Below are positions 1-14,340 of a DNA stretch of 22,922 bases, piece by piece. The DNA lies in IMG/VR virus record IMGVR_UViG_3300044733_000730, positions 1 through 22,922 of that record. One strand, 5' to 3'. The translations under genes and the position numbers were made by a program. The stretch's first letter is position 1; the number at the start of each line of letters is the position of its first letter. This DNA comes from a virus. The notes beneath the pieces were generated by a model. The model was not told the DNA's origin and did no database searches. It was given only the letters and a program-made list of their open reading frames with translations.

Positions 1-327
1 TACCTTGTATGCAGTGACCTTACCATCAGCATCACAGTAGGGAAAAGCTACACCACCCTCATCAGTGATCATCACACCAAAGGCTTTTAAGGCATCTCTG
101 GATAGGTTTCTTAGCGGTATGGACTGATACTTACCATCTAACATTGGAATCACCTTAGCAGACTTTGTATGCTTTTGCCTGAAGTTGTCATCATGTTCAG
201 ACAATTTAGTATTCGTACCACAAGCAAAACAATGTGACCAAGTTTCTCCTTTATCGTTAACAGATACGGATAGTGCATCACTAGACCCACAATCATCACA
301 GCCAACATGCGTGGCTAAGTAGTTCAC
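1..327 (-). CDS. DNA primase/helicase, T7 gp4-like, N-terminal part (partial)
   Basis: The reading frame runs off the left edge, so only the first 109 codons are present. The translation carries a zinc-binding motif of the T7 gp4 primase type: Cys10-x2-Cys13 and Cys33-x2-Cys36, in the context HVGCDDCGSSD and SHCFACG. This is known in that family to recognise the priming site. The sequence after it resembles the start of the primase core. The helicase domain would lie outside the window. Start choice: GTG at 327, overlapping the stop of the upstream gene as GTGA, with an AAGGAG Shine-Dalgarno inside the previous gene's last codons. Expected role is lagging-strand priming and unwinding at the phage fork. 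The family call rests on the zinc motif and its spacing. A primase-only protein is possible. Confidence 0.8.
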   Translation of the reverse strand, partial: MNYLATHVGCDDCGSSDALSVSVNDKGETWSHCFACGTNTKLSEHDDNFRQKHTKSAKVIPMLDGKYQSIPLRNLSRDALKAFGVMITDEGGVAFPYCDADGKVTAYKV

Positions 328-611
328 TGATTCTTCTCCTTCAAAGCTTGTTCAATGGCCTTAGCAAAACCCAAGCGATCAAACCACGCTGCGTTACTAG
401 CATCAATCTTTTGATACAGATAACTCAGATCTTGTATCTCCTCATCCGTTAGTGAAACCCATTGCTTAGCTGGTTTGCTTGAAATACAAGTAACCGTATA
501 GGGTTTGCCGCATTGACACCGCCACGCCGTAGGCCCTGGCCCATACCACACACCGTCGATAAAACCTGTTCCACCATCCGTTGGTGTCTTTGCATTTTTG
601 TTTTCAGCCAT
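324..611 (-). CDS. Hypothetical phage protein with C-terminal QWVxLTDEEI...KAIExxLKEKN module
   Basis: A 95-residue soluble protein of unknown function. The N-terminal half is Gly/Pro-rich and has one CxC pair (WRCQCGKPYTV), possibly a small beta fold. The C-terminal half (QWVSLTDEEI ... FAKAIEQALKEKN) is a short helical module also present at the end of the neighbouring 604-957 product, so the two genes share a duplicated or exchanged domain. LTDEEI modules of this type are common in small proteins of tailed phages, but I know of no assigned function. It overlaps the upstream gene by 8 nt and the primase gene start by 4 nt, so translation is probably coupled. Its last codons (AAG GAG AAG AAT) double as the primase ribosome-binding site. 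Confidence 0.75.
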   Translation of the reverse strand: MAENKNAKTPTDGGTGFIDGVWYGPGPTAWRCQCGKPYTVTCISSKPAKQWVSLTDEEIQDLSYLYQKIDASNAAWFDRLGFAKAIEQALKEKNQ

Positions 612-957
612 GATTCTTCTCCTTCAGCTTGGCTTCAATAGCTTTACCGAATGCTTTGATACCGTAATTACTGCCATGCTGATAAAGATACTTATCTGCA
701 TATTCATAGATTTCCTCATCAGTCAGCCCAACCCATTGCTTTTGTGGTGAGGTGTAGAGGGGGTTGCATTTAAATCCCATTTCATCCATATACCGTTTAC
801 TACGAGACACATCGCCGCCCTCTGATATCCACGCCACAGGCTTTTGCTCTGTTTCCAGTGCTTGGCGCAATACCTCAACGGCTTTTGTTTTTGCCGCCCA
901 ATTACCTAAATTAGCTTCCAGCGCATCTAAAGCAATCTGCATAGCTTCTCTGCTCAT
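604..957 (-). CDS. Hypothetical phage protein with PVAW...PLYTSP and LTDEEI segments
   Basis: A 117-residue protein of a type often seen in proteobacterial phages. It has an N-terminal amphipathic helix (MSREAMQIALDALEANL), a middle PVAWISEGG...NPLYTSP segment, then a C-terminal QWVGLTDEEI ... AFGKAIEAKLKEKN module like that of its downstream neighbour. No catalytic motif is recognised and the function is unknown. The start at 957 overlaps the upstream stop by 4 nt (ATGA) and follows a GAGGA Shine-Dalgarno. The end overlaps the next start by 8 nt. Its terminal AAGGAGAAG codons serve as the next gene's Shine-Dalgarno. Confidence 0.78.
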   Translation of the reverse strand: MSREAMQIALDALEANLGNWAAKTKAVEVLRQALETEQKPVAWISEGGDVSRSKRYMDEMGFKCNPLYTSPQKQWVGLTDEEIYEYADKYLYQHGSNYGIKAFGKAIEAKLKEKNHG

Positions 958-1241
958 GTTGTCCTCAAGTTAAAAGGGTTATGCCAACAGATACCAGTGT
1001 TGTCTTTGGTGTTGTATCCACCTAGTGAGTACGATATCAAGTATTGGTGATCATCCTTCCGAATATCCCTATCAACAGTGTAGTTATCAACTAACTTAGA
1101 CATAGAGTCTCTTATCTGCTTAGAGGTCTTGTCAGGGAATGCCTCTAGGAGCTGTTCTAAGGTAGCATGGCGGCCATGATTCTCTAGGTAGGCTACGTAG
1201 GGGTTAACCTTGCGTTTACGTGGCTGTATACGCTTAATCAT
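954..1241 (-). CDS. Hypothetical small protein, possible winged-helix DNA-binding fold
   Basis: A 95-residue protein with a basic start (MIKRIQPRKRKVNPYV) followed by a segment whose order of helices (HATLEQLLEAFPDKTSKQIRDSMSKLVDNYTV) resembles a helix-turn-helix/winged-helix unit: a scaffold helix, then TSKQIRDSMSKL as a candidate recognition helix. The C-terminal part, HQYLISYSLGGYN, could form the wing. This suggests DNA binding, possibly transcriptional control of early genes, but the assignment is by eye only. It is linked by 4-nt overlaps to both neighbours and so is co-transcribed with the early operon. Confidence 0.65.
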   Translation of the reverse strand: MIKRIQPRKRKVNPYVAYLENHGRHATLEQLLEAFPDKTSKQIRDSMSKLVDNYTVDRDIRKDDHQYLISYSLGGYNTKDNTGICWHNPFNLRTT

Positions 1242-1438
1242 ACGTTGAACCCTTTAGCGTTAAGAGCCTTAGTTAACTGACGCAACATAAAGTAAAAACC
1301 ATACTCTTGGCATAAGCGAACAAAGCGATTTAACACGTCATTGATGTTGTGATCTTCGTGCATATCTTCGTACTCACCTTTAGTGTAATCAAAGGCTTCT
1401 TCAGGTAAAAACTCATAATCAGGGTACATTTCGAACAA
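1238..1438 (-). CDS. Hypothetical small early protein (66 aa)
   Basis: A 66-residue protein, acidic in its first half (MFEMYPDYEFLPEEAFDYTKGEYEDMHEDH) and helical and more basic in its second (NRFVRLCQEYGFYFMLRQLTKAL). I do not recognise the family. The strongly acidic N-terminal half could be an interaction surface, possibly a DNA mimic, but nothing in the sequence proves this. The gene follows the large palindrome at 1460-1546 and overlaps the next gene by 4 nt (ATGA). Only a weak AAGGA lies upstream of the start. Confidence 0.6.
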   Translation of the reverse strand: MFEMYPDYEFLPEEAFDYTKGEYEDMHEDHNINDVLNRFVRLCQEYGFYFMLRQLTKALNAKGFNV

Positions 1439-1459
1439 TCCTTATGTTAAGCCCTACTG

Positions 1460-1546
1460 TACATAGGCTATTTAGACTAAGTACTAAGTATATATTAAAT
1501 ATTATACATAGTATATACTTAGTACATAGCCTAAGTAGCCTACATA
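1460..1546. repeat. Long imperfect palindrome with 9-bp direct repeats
   Basis: Bases 1466-1494 and 1512-1540 are inverted copies of each other, 29 nt with three mismatches, around an AT-rich 17-nt centre. Weaker pairing continues to 1460 and 1546. The right arm and its flank consist of imperfect 9-bp units (TACATAGCC, TAAGTAGCC, TACATAGCC). The centre contains ATTATA (TATAAT on the minus strand), but no good -35 is seen. No T-run follows on the minus strand, so it is not a standard terminator. It lies between two co-oriented early genes. Short frames in both directions across it are composition artefacts. Confidence 0.8.
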
Positions 1547-1590
1547 GCCTATATAGATTTAGGGTATCAGAAAAAAACAAAGTTGTCAAG

Positions 1591-1788
1591 TCATTCTTCA
1601 TCAATGTTACGTTTACTTACAATGTCATCATCTCCTTCATTGATCAAGCGTACATTACCAACAGCAGCAATCTCATCTCGGACATAACGAAAACAACCAT
1701 TACATAAGTCAATGTACTGGTGTGTTCGAACACTACGCCTAGAGGCTTCATAGTCGCTCAAGGCTTCATTACATGATAAGCATCTCAC
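1591..1788 (-). CDS. Small zinc-finger-like phage protein
   Basis: A 65-residue protein beginning with GTG. It contains CLSC (residues 3-6) and LCNGC (28-32), two Cys-x2-Cys pairs about 22 residues apart that should bind one zinc ion, and an acidic C-terminal tail. Small phage proteins of the pattern CLSCN.AL.D.EA.R...G.YIDLCN.C are common in tailed phages of aquatic bacteria; their function is unknown to me. The GTG start overlaps the stop of the 57-aa gene upstream as GTGA, so translation is likely coupled. The large palindrome lies downstream of its stop. Confidence 0.75.
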   Translation of the reverse strand: MRCLSCNEALSDYEASRRSVRTHQYIDLCNGCFRYVRDEIAAVGNVRLINEGDDDIVSKRNIDEE

Positions 1789-1958
1789 TTTAGATCATCC
1801 TTCATAGAGTCAATCAACGAAACAAGTCGATAGTATTGAACATGCTCTTTCTCTGCTTCTTTGTCCGCAGCATCAGCATGACCTAATGCTAAGGCAATAT
1901 TAGCCTTGATTTGCAGTTCAATTAAGTACAGCAACTCATCCAACATCTCTTTAGTCAT
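1785..1958 (-). CDS. Hypothetical 57-aa helical protein
   Basis: A 57-residue frame starting MTKEMLDELLYLIELQIKAN and ending SLIDSMKDDLK. It is predicted to be almost entirely helical, with heptad-like hydrophobic spacing that could form a coiled coil or a small helical hairpin. A GAGGG Shine-Dalgarno lies 7 nt before the ATG. The end overlaps the next gene's GTG start by 4 nt, the same arrangement as elsewhere in this operon, which supports it as real. It is the first gene after the HNH cassette and its terminator. Function unknown. Confidence 0.65.
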   Translation of the reverse strand: MTKEMLDELLYLIELQIKANIALALGHADAADKEAEKEHVQYYRLVSLIDSMKDDLK

Positions 1959-1977
1959 AGAATACCCTCTAGAATCG

Positions 1978-2009
1978 ATTAAAACAGGCCTAGAAGCGAC
2001 GATCTAGGC
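1978..2009 (-). terminator. Rho-independent terminator of the HNH gene
   Basis: On the minus strand GCCTAGA (2009-2003) pairs with TCTAGGC (1994-1988) around an 8-nt loop and is followed by CTGTTTTAA. The 7-bp stem begins within the last codons of the HNH gene and covers its stop. The T-run is short, so partial read-through into the downstream early genes is possible. Confidence 0.6.
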
Positions 2010-2489
2010 TAAGGTGGACTCCGCAAAGGACGGAAACGTCTCAGGCCTTATTTGACGGCTTTGAATGGCTCTTATTTTATACATGAAACGACTAGCCATT
2101 TCTTGCCTAGCTCTAACAAAGTCTTTAAGGTTTCGTCCAAGTTCATCAATTTCGTCATCAGTCCATAAACTCCTTTGCTTTTGAAGTTTAACGTCATAGT
2201 AAGATTCTAAGAAAACAAGTCTATCCATCACTGTAAACAGTTTTTTGTTGCCTAGAGCCGTATTGCACTCATTACAGCATGTAATCAATGAGCATGGAAT
2301 GTCGTTTTTTCTCCTATAGTCATAATCTAAATTGTCCATAACCGTTAATGGCGGAACATGATCTAAGACATTAGCAGGGTCGGCGCAGTAAAAACAATAA
2401 AAGCCTTCGCTGATAAAGTGTCGTTTATACTTATGCCCGTGTAATTGATTAAGTCTTTTGCGTTCCTTGAGTAGATTTCTTTTGTTCAT
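2004..2489 (-). CDS. HNH endonuclease (free-standing, homing type)
   Basis: A 161-residue HNH-family nuclease, counted from the ATG at 2489. A basic N-terminal region (MNKRNLLKERKRLNQLHGHK) precedes the HNH fold: zinc ligands Cys32-x2-Cys35 (CFYC) and Cys72-x2-Cys75 (CNEC), the catalytic-strand motif LDHVPP (residues 42-47) and the Asn-containing CNECNTALGNK helix. The C-terminal half is helical and probably contacts DNA. The frame is open to 2510, but the ATG at 2489 follows GGAGA at a workable distance and is preferred. It carries its own promoter and terminator, so it looks like an inserted selfish gene in the early operon. A role in nicking co-infecting phage DNA is family knowledge, not shown here. 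Confidence 0.85.
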   Translation of the reverse strand: MNKRNLLKERKRLNQLHGHKYKRHFISEGFYCFYCADPANVLDHVPPLTVMDNLDYDYRRKNDIPCSLITCCNECNTALGNKKLFTVMDRLVFLESYYDVKLQKQRSLWTDDEIDELGRNLKDFVRARQEMASRFMYKIRAIQSRQIRPETFPSFAESTLA

Positions 2490-2523
2490 GACGTGCAGTC
2501 TCCATAGCATACATAGTGTTGCT

Positions 2524-2535
2524 ATTTTACCACAC
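2524..2535 (-). promoter_or_regulatory. Extended -10 promoter of the HNH gene
   Basis: The minus strand reads GTGTGGTAAAAT, an extended -10 element (TGG + TAAAAT) about 35 nt before the likely ATG. No good -35 hexamer is found 16-18 nt upstream, as is allowed for extended -10 promoters. The same 12-mer, with one variable base, precedes the genes at 14292 (minus) and 14382 (plus). Confidence 0.6.
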
Positions 2536-2567
2536 TAAACTTACATGATCCTTACATTGTAGTTGAC

Positions 2568-2768
2568 CTACATGAGTGCATCTTCAACGCCTTGTAGAGC
2601 CTCTAATCGCTTTGATACTTTAGTCTTAGTGATTAGCTTGGCTTTAACCCAAGTATAGGATGGAAACGGCCATAGCGGATCAGGTGATGCATGACGTATC
2701 AAAACCTCACCATCAACACCATGCTTCAACACTTCGCATGGTTTACCATTGAAATAAGTCTTAATCAT
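2568..2768 (-). CDS. Hypothetical small early protein (66 aa)
   Basis: A 66-residue protein, MIKTYFNGKPCEVLKHGVDGEVLIRHASPDPLW and onward. The first half has alternating beta-type residues with Gly turns, like a small beta-barrel or SH3-like fold (KPCEVLKHGVDGEVLIR). The second half (VKAKLITKTKVSKRLEALQGVEDAL) is basic and helical. No catalytic motif is seen and I do not recognise the family. The ATG overlaps the stop of the tiny membrane-peptide gene upstream (ATGA). It is the last gene of the promoter-proximal block before the HNH insertion. Confidence 0.65.
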   Translation of the reverse strand: MIKTYFNGKPCEVLKHGVDGEVLIRHASPDPLWPFPSYTWVKAKLITKTKVSKRLEALQGVEDALM

Positions 2769-2854
2769 AGGGTTAGTCCTATAAAGGTCATGAAGGCGAA
2801 CAATACACCGAAAGCACTACCACCAAGATACAACACAAAGTCACTAGATTGCAT
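2765..2854 (-). CDS. 29-aa putative membrane peptide
   Basis: A very short frame with an ATG at 2854 preceded by a strong AGGAGAG Shine-Dalgarno and ending in an ATGA overlap with the next gene. The product begins MQSSDFVLYLGG and continues SAFGVLFAFMTFIGLTL, a single hydrophobic segment long enough to cross the inner membrane, with no charged residue after Asp5. The strong ribosome site and coupling support real translation. Tiny one-segment peptides in phages can be host-membrane effectors or lysis/superinfection modulators, but no function can be assigned. Confidence 0.55.
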   Translation of the reverse strand: MQSSDFVLYLGGSAFGVLFAFMTFIGLTL

Positions 2855-2856
2855 GT

Positions 2857-3018
2857 CTACTCTCCTGATAAGTCTACGATAGGGTTAATCCAAAACTCTT
2901 CAGGCTCTAAACGATCAACGAAGTCCTCAGCATCATCTAACGTATCGAACCTATCCAAGTGCTCTAAACCACCTTCTAAGCTTAGATAGTATGTGACTAG
3001 ATAGCCTACGATTTTCAT
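2857..3018 (-). CDS. Hypothetical 53-aa acidic early protein
   Basis: A 53-residue frame, MKIVGYLVTYYLSLEGGLEHLDRF followed by DTLDDAEDFVDRL and ending DLSGE. A beta-strand start, then a loop and an acidic helix give a beta-alpha pattern with a net negative charge. The ATG overlaps the stop of the first gene of the operon (ATGA). The stop lies 2 nt before the next start, and its final codons GGA GAG TAG supply the next gene's Shine-Dalgarno. Family and function not recognised. Confidence 0.62.
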   Translation of the reverse strand: MKIVGYLVTYYLSLEGGLEHLDRFDTLDDAEDFVDRLEPEEFWINPIVDLSGE

Positions 3019-3317
3019 GCTGTCTCTTCCTCTTCTGATTCTTCTTCATCTTCGTCATCAGTATCAGATGCTAAATGATCAGCAATAGCCCACCAGTCAA
3101 CATCGGACAAGAATGCTAAAGCATAATCACGTGCAAGACCTTCGTTTGATGTTGCCTCAATTAATTCCTCAGCATATTCCTGACAGGCAGATCTTAATTC
3201 TGACATGCAAGTGACAGATCTTCCAGTAAGATCACGTGCTGTCATGCCATCAAACATTTCTAGGTTGATTCTCCAAGTAGCGTAGTTAGTCCAGCCGTTG
3301 TAAGTTGATTTGCTCAT
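3015..3317 (-). CDS. NGWTNYATW-family early phage protein
   Basis: The first gene of the early operon, 100 residues. It starts with the recognisable phage pattern TYNGWTNYATWRINLEMFDG (residues 5-24), shared by many small proteins of tailed phages with no experimentally assigned function that I know of. The middle is helical (SELRSACQEYAEELIEATS ... LARDYALAFLSDVDWWAIADHL). The last 17 residues are almost all Asp/Glu, an acidic tail that might mimic nucleic acid or recruit a host protein. A GGAG site lies 9 nt before the ATG, and a near-consensus promoter sits about 50-75 nt upstream, so it is probably among the first phage proteins made. Confidence 0.75.
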   Translation of the reverse strand: MSKSTYNGWTNYATWRINLEMFDGMTARDLTGRSVTCMSELRSACQEYAEELIEATSNEGLARDYALAFLSDVDWWAIADHLASDTDDEDEEESEEEETA

Positions 3318-3366
3318 GATAGATTCTCCGTAGTTGACTTAGCGGAATTGCTTTGTCGATGTGTCC

Positions 3367-3395
3367 ATACTACCTAGCTGATTTCACGTTGTCAA
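3367..3395 (-). promoter_or_regulatory. Strong sigma70-type early promoter
   Basis: On the minus strand TTGACA (3395-3390), a 17-nt spacer and TAGTAT (3372-3367). The -35 is perfect and the spacing ideal. It points into the early operon starting at 3317, consistent with transcription by host RNA polymerase on entry. Confidence 0.8.
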
Positions 3396-3464
3396 TGGCA
3401 TTTCAGCACTATCCGATGAACGGACAATAATCCAGGATGAACGGTAGTGTTGTTCGAATACAAC

Positions 3465-3480
3465 AGTTTCACGTGGAACA
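3465..3480. promoter_or_regulatory. parS: parS-like ParB-binding site
   Basis: The 16-mer AGTTTCACGTGGAACA contains the 14-bp core GTTTCACGTGGAAC, which fits the bacterial chromosomal parS consensus TGTTYCACGTGRAACA at every position except the first base. It is close to a perfect palindrome around CACGTG. No parA or parB gene is seen in the window, so host ParB or a phage protein outside the window would be the binder. Binding itself is inferred. Confidence 0.6.
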
Positions 3481-3859
3481 CTGCACAGTCTGCACAGTCT
3501 GCGAAGTGTCATTGTAGGTATCAATGTAGGGTGCTTCATCGATACATTCTTCCACCTGCACAGCAACCAGCACAGACTGCACAGCCTATGCAGTAACTTA
3601 CGTTAACTTACACTATCTTGCTGCTATCTTGCAGTATCTCTATTGTATTCTGTATACAGTATACGACATAGGGGGAGGGGTAGAGTTGTGGTGTAGATTG
3701 TTGTGGTGCTACCTAGCCACAAAAAAAAGCTAAAAAGTAACTTGATAATGATAATCCATTACTATTAAGAAATCTCTTTAGAATCAATAGGTTATCTATA
3801 TTGCCTCTGCGGAGCCTAAGACACCATGTTAATGGAGCCCCGCTAAAGCCTTGATTGGT

Positions 3860-3906
3860 GTGTAGTCTACACTGAATCTGCACTGGTTAAAGCATAGTCT
3901 GCACTG
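3860..3906. repeat. Helically phased iterons
   Basis: Three copies of a TCTRCACTG-type repeat at 3863-3874, 3874-3885 and 3895-3906, spaced 11 and 21 bp, i.e. on one face of the helix. The first lies in a perfect palindrome, GTGTAG-T-CTACAC (3860-3872). Related AGTCTGC units occur at 3487-3504. The array is about 30 bp upstream of the plus-strand promoter, so it could be an origin iteron set or an activator/repressor site. Confidence 0.55.
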
Positions 3907-3936
3907 ACAATAACCCTACAGTAGTAGTCAAGAGTC

Positions 3937-3966
3937 TTTACAACAATATCAGTTGTATGCTACAAT
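3937..3966 (+). promoter_or_regulatory. Promoter for the packaging/structural genes
   Basis: TTTACA (3937-3942), an 18-nt spacer ending TGC, and TACAAT (3961-3966), giving an extended -10. The spacer contains the inverted repeat CAAC/GTTG (3941-3955), a possible operator. The predicted start near 3973 sits at a CTATGTAGGCTA motif (3975-3986) that recurs inverted in the early-operon palindrome. The leader to the first gene is about 145 nt. Confidence 0.6.
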
Positions 3967-4084
3967 AAGTCCTTCTATGTAGGCTATGAACAAAACATTG
4001 TATAAAAACAATTCAGTAATAGACATATAACTAATCGTCATACACTACATTGTAGATACATAAAATTATATACACCCTACAGTC

Positions 4085-4098
4085 CTGCCTTCCGGCAG
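4085..4098 (+). promoter_or_regulatory. 5'-leader hairpin before terS
   Basis: CTGCC-TTCC-GGCAG forms a 5-bp GC-rich stem with a tight tetraloop, 21 nt before the first packaging gene and 12 nt before its GAGG site. No T-run follows, so a transcript-stabilising or RNA-processing role is more likely than termination. Confidence 0.45.
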
Positions 4099-4119
4099 AG
4101 AAACTATATAGAGGTAGTG

Positions 4120-4617
4120 ATGTCTGAAATTAAAACTGACGATGTACCATCTAATCTTTGTTCGCTACCTTCATCGGTCAGCCAGGATGTTGTGGCAGTC
4201 AATGAAGAAAAGAAAGTGCCTGCCAAAAAAAGGAAAAGAGGAAGACCAAAGAAGGAAGAGGTACAGAAGTACATCAAAAGAGCTAAAAGAGGTAGGCCTC
4301 CTGGTGAAGCAGCAAGGATTAAAGAACTAACAGCTTCGCTGTTGCTGACACACTCACAGGCCATTATCCGTAAGATTGTTCACAAAGCATTGAATGATGA
4401 GGATAAGGATCAGATGGCAGCACTGAAGCTGTGTGTTGATAGGATGTTGCCAGTATCTTATTTTGAAGAAAAAGGTGTTGGAGGAGGCTCTAGAGCCATT
4501 ACCATCAATATCACTGGAGTGAATGATAATCCAGTAGAAATGATTGAGCATGAACCTGTTGAGGTAGAAACCACGTTGATTGATTACGAAGAAGAAGACG
4601 ATGGATCTACAAGTTAA
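4120..4617 (+). CDS. terS: Terminase small subunit (probable)
   Basis: A 165-residue protein directly upstream of and overlapping the large terminase. It has two AT-hook-like basic motifs (KRGRPKK, about residues 39-45, and KRGRPP, 56-61) that should bind the minor groove of AT-rich DNA, a helical middle (LTHSQAIIRKIVHKALNDED, then AALKLCVDRMLPVS), a beta strand (RAITINITGV) and an acidic tail. The LCVDRMLPVS/ITINITG pattern is seen in small-terminase-like proteins of tailed phages. Role: recognise phage DNA and load it on the motor. ATG at 4120 is preferred to the GTG one codon earlier because GAGG ends 5 nt before it. The evidence is position plus weak sequence likeness, so a general DNA-binding protein is the alternative. 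Confidence 0.72.
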   Translation: MSEIKTDDVPSNLCSLPSSVSQDVVAVNEEKKVPAKKRKRGRPKKEEVQKYIKRAKRGRPPGEAARIKELTASLLLTHSQAIIRKIVHKALNDEDKDQMAALKLCVDRMLPVSYFEEKGVGGGSRAITINITGVNDNPVEMIEHEPVEVETTLIDYEEEDDGSTS

Positions 4618-5854
4618 GTTACTTCCCTGGCAACAAGATGTCTTTAAAGATCCAGCAAGGTTTAAGATCATCGCTGCTGGTAGACGTACAGGTAAATCTA
4701 GGTTAGCAGCTTGGACACTGATCATAGAGGCACTACAGACTGAGAAAGGTCATGTCTGGTATGTAGCACCAACACAGGGTCAAGCTAGAGATATTATGTG
4801 GTCTACGCTGTTAGAGCTAGGCCATACAGTCATTAAAGGTAGTCATGTTAACAACATGCAGATTACCTTAGTCAATGGTGCAATGATCTCACTAAAGGGT
4901 GCAGATAGACCAGAGACAATGCGTGGTGTCAGCTTAAAGTATCTAGTGATGGACGAATACGCTGACATGAAACCACAGGTGTTCGAACAGATCTTAAGAC
5001 CTGCCTTAGCGGATCAGAAGGGTAGAGCAATGTTCATTGGTACGCCAATGGGTAGAAACCACTTCTATGAACTGTATAGGCTAGGTGATAGTGGTAAGGA
5101 TAAGGATTACAAGGCATGGCACTTCACTAGCTTTGATAATCCATTGTTAGATCCAGCAGAGATTGAAGCTGCTAAAGGTTCAATGTCTAGCTTTGCTTTC
5201 AGACAAGAGTTTATGGCTTCGTTTGAAGCATCTCAGAGTGAGATATTTAAGGAAGAATGGATTAAAGTCAGCGACGAGGAACCTGATGAAGGTAACTACT
5301 TTATGGCGGTGGATCTATGTGGTTTCTCTGATTCTTCTCAGACGAACAAGTCGAAGAATTCGAAACTGGATGAAACAGCGATAGCCATTGTTAAGGTTAA
5401 CACCAAAGGTTGGTGGGTTGCTGACATACTGCATGGTAGGTGGGATGTCCGAGAGACAGCAGTACGTATATTAAAGGCTGCAAAGGATTACAGAGTTAGT
5501 TGTGTTGGGATAGAGAAAGGTGCGCTGAAGAATGCAGTGATGCCTTATATGCACGATCTAATGCGTAGGAATGGTTTTTATCCTAGGATTGAAGAACTAA
5601 CGCATGGTAATAAGAAGAAAGCAGATAGGATTGTTTGGTCACTACAAGGTCGATTTGAGCATGGTAGGATTGTTTTAAATGAAGGTGACTGGAATTATCA
5701 GTTCTTAGACCAACTGATGCAGTTCCCAGACACTAAGACACATGATGATTTGATTGATGCACTTAGCTACATTGATCAAATACAAACTGCAAACTGGAAT
5801 CAAAACCTTGATGAAGAAGAGTTTGAAGTATTGGACCAAGTAGCAGGCTATTAG
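4601..5854 (+). CDS. terL: Terminase large subunit (packaging ATPase/nuclease)
   Basis: A 417-residue motor protein that drives DNA into the prohead and cuts it. The ATPase domain shows a Walker A loop GRRTGKS (residues 27-33), a Walker B segment YLVMDEY (114-120) with the acidic pair Asp118-Glu119, and a likely coupling motif in MFIGTPMG (144-151). The RNase H-like nuclease domain follows: MAVDLCG (Asp238), GIEKG (Glu305) and HDDLIDALSY (381-390), which supply the metal-binding acids. Length and order are normal for the family. The ATG at 4601 is chosen over an in-frame TTG seven codons upstream because a purine-rich GAAGAAG precedes it. It overlaps terS by 17 nt. Confidence 0.95.
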   Translation: MDLQVKLLPWQQDVFKDPARFKIIAAGRRTGKSRLAAWTLIIEALQTEKGHVWYVAPTQGQARDIMWSTLLELGHTVIKGSHVNNMQITLVNGAMISLKGADRPETMRGVSLKYLVMDEYADMKPQVFEQILRPALADQKGRAMFIGTPMGRNHFYELYRLGDSGKDKDYKAWHFTSFDNPLLDPAEIEAAKGSMSSFAFRQEFMASFEASQSEIFKEEWIKVSDEEPDEGNYFMAVDLCGFSDSSQTNKSKNSKLDETAIAIVKVNTKGWWVADILHGRWDVRETAVRILKAAKDYRVSCVGIEKGALKNAVMPYMHDLMRRNGFYPRIEELTHGNKKKADRIVWSLQGRFEHGRIVLNEGDWNYQFLDQLMQFPDTKTHDDLIDALSYIDQIQTANWNQNLDEEEFEVLDQVAGY

Positions 5855-13409: not shown

Positions 13410-13730
13410 ATGGCACACTTTGCCAAGATTGAGAATAACGTAGTTACTCAGGTTATCGTTGTAGACAACAAAGATACCGCTGATGCTAGTGGTGTTGAGA
13501 AAGAGCATATCGGTGCTGCTTTCTGTGAACGTCTACTAGGAGGTACTTGGAAGCAAACCAGCTATAACGGTAAGTTTCGTAAGAACTATGCTGGTATTGG
13601 TTATACCTTTGATGAGGCTAGGAATGCCTTTATCCCACCAAAGCCTACAGAAGATGCTGTATTAGACGAAGCAACTTGCCAGTGGATTGTCACCATTGCT
13701 GCAGACTCTATAGGTGCTGATTCTGTCTAA
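13410..13730 (+). CDS. Conserved phage structural-region protein (MAHFAKIENN family)
   Basis: A 106-residue protein starting MAHFAKIENNVVTQVIVVDN, then EKEHIGAAFCERLLGGTWKQTSYNGKFRKNYAGIGYTFDE and PPKP...LDEATCQWI. This family is widespread in marine and freshwater phages, usually beside tail-fibre or structural genes. No function is known to me; a virion or fibre accessory is inferred from context. The ATG directly follows the oxygenase stop. Its last 23 nt overlap, tail to tail, the end of the antisense HNH gene, so the HNH insertion may have trimmed or replaced sequence here. Confidence 0.75.
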   Translation: MAHFAKIENNVVTQVIVVDNKDTADASGVEKEHIGAAFCERLLGGTWKQTSYNGKFRKNYAGIGYTFDEARNAFIPPKPTEDAVLDEATCQWIVTIAADSIGADSV

Positions 13731-14292
13731 GGAAATCAGCAATCCTTTGATGTTCTTCAGCAGTACCATCGTTCTTAATACGATTAGCTCTCCATGACAT
13801 GATCATGACATTGCCTTTGATGTAGCCTTTAGTTGTATCTAAACGATCAAAGCTAACAGAGTTCTCTTGTCTTTCTGAAGCATAGTAATCAAGTTCAATA
13901 CCTAGTATCGGACAATGTGTAGGGAAGAACAGATCATCAAAGGTAATGTCCCATTCATGTTTGTAGTTAGATGCTTTCTTACGTCTGAACTTCTCTCGTT
14001 GTACTTGATAAGCATCTAGTTCACGCACTGATGCCTCTTCTGGGTAATGACCCCATTTCTGCTTATAGTTCTGTCTTAGAAGCTCTCTTCGCTGTGTTCG
14101 AGGACGTTGTTCATCAGTGATACGACCTTCTTTGATTAGTTTATCAATCAGTTGATGTACTCGTTGTCTGCTTACATTACCTAAAGCTTTACGTATCTCT
14201 TCAGTAGGTTTTCCATGAGCAACTAAGTGTTGGACAAGGTTTAACCTTTCCTGAGAAGTTAGTGATGTTTTAGCAAAGTGATGTGCTTGCAT
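13708..14292 (-). CDS. HNH endonuclease with N-terminal HTH (free-standing)
   Basis: A 194-residue nuclease encoded against the late genes. An N-terminal helix-turn-helix (about residues 29-57, PTEEIRKALGNVSRQRVHQLIDKL) resembles the DNA-binding units of homing endonucleases. The C-terminal domain has HCPILGIELDYY (126-137) and SFDRLDTTKGYIKGNVMIMSWRANRIK (147-173), the layout of phage HNH nucleases with DRxDxxKGYxxGNV. The frame is open to 14340, but ATG at 14292 follows GGAG and lies after the promoter, so it is chosen. A selfish mobile gene inserted between the fibre and head modules is the likely origin. Confidence 0.85.
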   Translation of the reverse strand: MQAHHFAKTSLTSQERLNLVQHLVAHGKPTEEIRKALGNVSRQRVHQLIDKLIKEGRITDEQRPRTQRRELLRQNYKQKWGHYPEEASVRELDAYQVQREKFRRKKASNYKHEWDITFDDLFFPTHCPILGIELDYYASERQENSVSFDRLDTTKGYIKGNVMIMSWRANRIKNDGTAEEHQRIADFLRQNQHL

Positions 14293-14311
14293 AGTGTCTC
14301 CAAAAAGCAGG

Positions 14312-14340
14312 ATTGTACCACACTTTAGTAACGCAGTCAA
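14312..14340 (-). promoter_or_regulatory. Promoter of the antisense HNH gene
   Basis: On the minus strand TTGACT (14340-14335), a 17-nt spacer ending GTGTGG, and TACAAT (14317-14312), i.e. near-consensus -35 and -10 plus an extended -10 TGG. The predicted start falls just before the GGAG site of the HNH gene. It is back-to-back with the plus-strand promoter at 14346. Confidence 0.75.

Follow-up and report, generated by a model that had tools for sequence, protein, structure and literature searches.

Why should a phage genome keep a large palindrome between two of its genes, and why should part of it recur at the start of the late transcript? The question was raised by an initial annotation of 22,922 nt of viral DNA (IMGVR_UViG_3300044733_000730; this whole stretch is called the window hereafter), which described a palindrome at 1460-1546, with 29-nt arms and 9-bp units, and proposed that one phage regulator acts at both places or that the early message contains a structured RNA that is processed.

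An inverted-repeat search confirmed the palindrome as the strongest inverted repeat of the window: an AT-rich, imperfect palindrome at 1464-1542, whose arms (1464-1502 and 1504-1542) are 39 nt each, 85% complementary and 1 nt apart, and of which the 29-nt arms described earlier are only a part. Its neighbours, both on the minus strand, are a Zn-ribbon-like ORF (1591-1788) on one side and a small ORF with an ATG at 1429 on the other. Taken as a leader hairpin on the minus strand, the element spans 1461-1546 and consists partly of 9-bp CTANNTAGG-type units. These units are real, in that relatives gain or lose entire TAGGCTACT units, with one extra in L106 and four extra in L136. In L089 the centre of the palindrome is exactly inverted with respect to the arms, and L118 and L126 are similarly inverted, as if recombination or template switching had turned the segment round. 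RNA folding of 1455-1556 gave one long stem, with -41.5 kcal/mol (z -5.27) for the minus strand and -40.8 kcal/mol (z -6.97) for the plus strand; 0 of 200 shuffles were as good on either strand, and the better z of the plus strand speaks against an RNA leader. An intrinsic terminator, that is, a GC-rich stem followed by a T-run, was rejected because no terminator-like site was called at the hairpin on either strand, as the initial annotation had held. A search of window positions 1-5000 against Rfam gave seven matches, all below the gathering threshold and mostly to microRNA models on the palindrome.

A sigma70-type signature stands on the minus strand in the gap that separates the palindrome from the Zn-ribbon gene: a conserved -35 hexamer, TTGACA (1584-1589), 17 nt, a -10 hexamer, TACCCT (1561-1566, within TGATACCCT at 1561-1569), and then the self-palindromic CTATATAG box (1549-1556), at or inside which transcription would start. 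A scan for consensus promoters picked up the late promoter and another, at 3395-3367, that points leftward; it missed the signature at the hairpin, as TACCCT agrees with TATAAT at three positions only. The leftward one is a strong sigma70-like promoter of the leftward early genes, TTGACA-N17-TAGTAT (3367-3395, minus strand). The putative promoter at the hairpin is supported by its conservation. We searched with the pattern TGATACCCTN{1,7}CTATATAG, without the -35 (116 stretches, 80 of them among the matches listed), and among the matches listed 75 distinct hits had enough upstream sequence. In the two groups of close relatives described below, every distinct hit (39 of 39) had TTGAC 16-18 nt upstream of the -10, and so did 22 of the 36 other distinct hits, each of them with a spacing of exactly 17 nt; the background is 0.4%. 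Given that the -35 was not in the search pattern, this spacing argues for a real promoter. An element with its own promoter just upstream probably begins a message, and the promoter signature predicts that the palindrome is promoter-proximal. The message would then pass a Shine-Dalgarno-like AAGGAT (1438-1443) and enter, on the minus strand, the first ORF past the hairpin (1238-1429; 63 aa from ATG 1429, or from TTG 1438 in the ORF list) and a second ORF (954-1241), which encodes a predicted winged-helix protein.

The element is more widespread than the window suggests. Close relatives were collected by a TerL search and a pattern scan (72 stretches, among them a few chance matches in unrelated sequence: L083, L087, L099, L131 and L133), and they contain 43 distinct versions of the element (81 copies including duplicates) behind the same promoter. 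Twenty-nine versions belong to group 1, which is window-like, and 14 to group 2, in which an outer stem of about 19 bp pairs perfectly and the inside differs; the palindrome of L027 spans about 124 nt. For distant relatives, the Zn-ribbon gene was used as the anchor, and 54 dereplicated places were read. The promoter signature stands behind the Zn-ribbon gene in 33 of these 54 places, compared with 11% of positions picked at random and 22% of AT-rich ones, and in many of them CTATATAG lies a few nucleotides past the -10 and an inverted repeat, retained with a different sequence, precedes the next gene. All locus counts are lower bounds, several searches having had further loci beyond 80. The initial annotation expected its reading to fail if close relatives kept neither the structure nor the shared motif; both the structure and the core of the motif are conserved. 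In L239, L241, L261 and L250, promoter and repeat are opposed to the neighbouring genes in a long unidirectional gene row, so that the element is not always the leader of a replication operon and would there give antisense transcription over the Zn-ribbon gene. A search for a close cultured relative gave none: the phage collection had no DNA match to window positions 900-4200, and TerL matched only below 60% identity. In the isolates MEP401 and MEP402, which are Zobellviridae phages (PMC10580990), a homologue of the Zn-ribbon gene immediately precedes the primase and the replication genes are similar, but the primase overlaps the Zn-ribbon gene and neither promoter nor hairpin is present there. 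The palindrome is thus a real, fast-evolving hairpin behind a conserved promoter, heading the DNA-replication genes of a large group of uncultured water phages.

The late operon, too, opens with sequence akin to this hairpin. Its promoter, TTTACA-N18-TACAAT (3937-3966, plus strand), is followed by CTATGTAGGCTATG (3975-3988, plus strand) at the start of the late leader, and the 12-mer CTATGTAGGCTA of the palindrome (1536-1547, minus strand) is common to both leaders in the same transcript sense. The window holds 51 inverted 12-mer pairs, and such a pair alone is unremarkable; what is noteworthy is the position of the late copy, as 3975 is 8 nt past the -10 of the late promoter, at the late transcript start where the initial annotation had placed it. 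The 12-mer is present in the window as claimed, but the shared core that is conserved is CTAYRTAG rather than the full 12-mer. CTATGTAG, the part of CTATGTAGGCTATG kept in group 2, stands behind the -10 in all listed late leaders of groups 1 and 2, and only this 8-mer is common to them because group 2 continues differently. The late promoter of close relatives is of two types, TTTACA-N18-TACAAT or TTGACA-N17-TANAAT, with the same leader behind. Pairing is possible between the beginning of the late leader and its ribosome-binding site (3972-3982 with CTATATAGAGG at 4104-4114, plus strand) or the intervening segment, and this pairing hardly varies among relatives. Elsewhere in the window, CTATGTATGCTATG at 2516 (minus strand), one mismatch from the shared 14-mer, stands just before ORF 2004-2510, and an HNH-like ORF, possibly a homing endonuclease on reading, lies among the late genes but is encoded on the other strand (13708-14340, minus strand).

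Sharing between the two leaders recurs in a marine clade with a different motif. In L035, L041, L048 and L180, the same GCAAGAGA...TCTCTTGC hairpin, one 13-bp helix, lies 14-21 nt past the -10 of both replication and late promoters. The marine hairpins read are the filter-passing subset of the listed matches of a pattern scan that returned mostly chance hits; their covariation score is 0.178, which was reached by 4 of 500 shuffles, and controls slid along the sequence stayed at or below 0.083. Three pairs are changed on both sides. In L180 the early leader can be aligned with the late one across about 56 nt, with a score of 33 (0 of 500 shuffles), and 0 of 500 shuffles also reached the early-late similarity of L048 and L319. 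Among the 12 dereplicated genomes with both leaders, the similarity of a genome's own early and late leaders has p ≤0.022, estimated from single-base shuffles, in L023, L041, L045, L048, L136, L180 and L319; the window reaches p 0.048, and there is little or no similarity in L008 (p 0.134), L053 (0.092), L055 (0.448) and L187 (0.822). The late leaders of other genomes sometimes score as high as a genome's own. As expected of palindromes, the antisense early-late score is as high or higher in L023, L041 and L048, so the similarity is clearly sense-specific only in L180, L319 and L136. One factor for both leaders is probable, because the leader sequence is common within a genome and different between clades. 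The proposal of one regulator acting on both regions is accordingly supported in part, namely as regards a common factor. The pattern suggests, short of proof, one control element used at both switches.

In which form would such an element act? The best reading, to our mind, is a leader hairpin close to the promoter that a factor common to the replication and late operons recognises; we hold it tentatively. In the early-leader stems of 33 dereplicated leaders, read on the transcript strand, imperfect positions favour G-U over A-C, with GT:AC counts of 36:13 as compared with 101:106 in shuffles; the stem search gave G-T and A-C mismatches the same score. At three cut-offs the counts were 36:13, 40:14 and 30:12, with 101:106, 132:121 and 55:57 in the respective shuffles. 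Fourteen leaders had more GT and three had more AC (two-sided sign test about 0.013, by our own count), and the counts are not fully independent, as related leaders share some pairs. The 21 of 54 representatives without the promoter signature were left out of these counts and of the folding of diverse leaders, and L062, L337 and L353 were kept in both, though they probably run into coding sequence. This bias supports a leader RNA. Of the close versions, which are not independent, 42 of 43 fold better as the transcript strand than as the complementary one; among diverse early leaders the median z is -2.10 versus -2.13 on the two strands, with the transcript strand better in 22 of 33. There is no G-U bias in the late leaders (7:8 in 13 representatives, left after dereplication and a length filter from 148 loci with a TerS-like gene, 141 of them with a promoter), and no strand bias in eight inverted-clade or similar elements (8:8).

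A DNA operator array ranks directly behind the leader hairpin and is a less likely, though serious, contender. On this view CTANNTAG dyads, recurring every 8-11 bp where transcription from the replication and late promoters would start, are bound by a phage protein, perhaps with looping between two sites, and the RNA hairpin would be a by-product. Of 64 dyads, CTANNTAG shows the strongest enrichment (56 observed versus 3.2 expected, 17.7-fold, in 21 of 33 leaders), and in 19 pairs successive copies are separated by 8-11 bp, most often by 9 bp, which fits a DNA site as well. The CTATATAG box overlaps the predicted start, both strands fold symmetrically, and the gene two places downstream is predicted to encode a winged-helix protein. 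CTAYRTAG is restricted to the two leaders in G003 (5 of 5 copies), G004 (4 of 4) and G008 (5 of 5), but G007, G021 and the window hold part of their copies elsewhere, and the motif was picked after the leaders had been seen. MetJ/Arc-type tandem operators consist of short dyads repeated at short spacing at promoters, and the tandem dyads found here resemble them in this respect, while the MetJ/Arc consensus differs from the element. Against an operator stand the G-U bias of the stem mismatches, the marine hairpin, which has another sequence (GCAAGAGA) and covaries, and the best Foldseek E of only 0.016 for the winged-helix candidate. Relatives point both ways: marine compensatory changes and G-U bias favour RNA, whereas CTANNTAG enrichment and symmetric folding favour DNA. 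The structured RNA suggested by the initial annotation receives moderate support, with the modification that the element would begin its own message from the promoter upstream.

Other accounts fare worse. Plain protection of the 5' end of the mRNA, by a hairpin that shields the message from decay with no specific factor, would suit the position at the message start and a structure that is kept while its sequence changes; yet it leaves unexplained both the early-late sequence sharing within genomes and the CTAYRTAG box, and we regard it as improbable. Stabilising stem-loops of the ompA type are hairpins at the start of a message, whereas the sequence described here is common to two operons of one genome. 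Still less probable is a replication origin, in which the promoter and the AT-rich inverted repeats would prime DNA synthesis: the element is AT-rich, adjoins replication genes and can flip its orientation, but in 6 of 6 sequences the cumulative GC-skew minimum, which is confounded by transcription, is near the divergent/late promoter and not at the hairpin. As a separate observation, CACAGTCTGCACAG-like stretches, possible origin iterons, are repeated at window positions 3480-3600 and 3840-3900, between the divergent operons and near that minimum. A neutral palindrome made by template switching and slippage would account for the whole-unit copy changes (L106, L136) and the exactly inverted centre of L089, but is unlikely, and the least probable of these accounts, in view of its conservation at one place, with a fixed promoter, across dozens of divergent phages.

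The leader-hairpin reading has a parallel in the put antitermination RNAs of phage HK022. putL and putR are RNAs of about 70 nt with two stem-loops; they occur twice per genome, one per operon, with a common sequence, and putL lies directly past an early promoter (PMC9378689). A structured RNA behind a promoter is predicted here from the promoter signature, and two sequence-sharing copies per genome are found in the marine clade (L180, L048), the window being weak in this respect (p 0.048). Unlike the two stem-loops described for put (PMC9378689), the window has one long stem and the marine clade one 13-bp helix. Moreover, put serves the left and right early operons and acts in antitermination (PMC9378689), whereas the element described here would serve replication and late operons. 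No such element was named in the literature searched, which is not proof of its absence from print.

We therefore propose, tentatively, that a sigma70-type promoter with an unusual -10, TACCCT, may start a message at or in the CTATATAG box, so that the replication-operon message would open with a long hairpin ahead of its first gene and the late operon with a related leader. One factor, either host RNA polymerase itself, as for HK022 put, or a phage protein, would recognise both leaders and tune the transcription, stability or translation of both messages. The product of ORF 954-1241 is, by its position, a possible candidate. This ORF is conserved in groups 1 and 2, is predicted to form a winged helix (mean pLDDT 75.7) and weakly resembles HxlR/MarR-type regulators (best Foldseek E 0.016; HxlR TM 0.59). 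Pfam gave no ribbon-helix-helix repressor among ten early ORFs, in which the best DNA-binding candidate was the winged-helix protein, and the RNA polymerase model PF00940 was found in 0 of 18 records, its control likewise being found in no genome. A bolder conjecture, which we consider improbable as it stands, is a new put-like family of leader RNAs in uncultured aquatic podoviruses: one such RNA, standing at the head of both operons, would load onto either a phage factor or the RNA polymerase of the host, set the early-to-late programme and evolve in concert within each genome.

In phages without a recognised polymerase or sigma factor, the switch from replication to virion genes is mostly obscure for uncultured aquatic podoviruses. 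A specific, testable element is now placed at both switches, and its natural variants, in unit number, inverted centre and clade-specific motif, would allow action as RNA to be separated from action as DNA.
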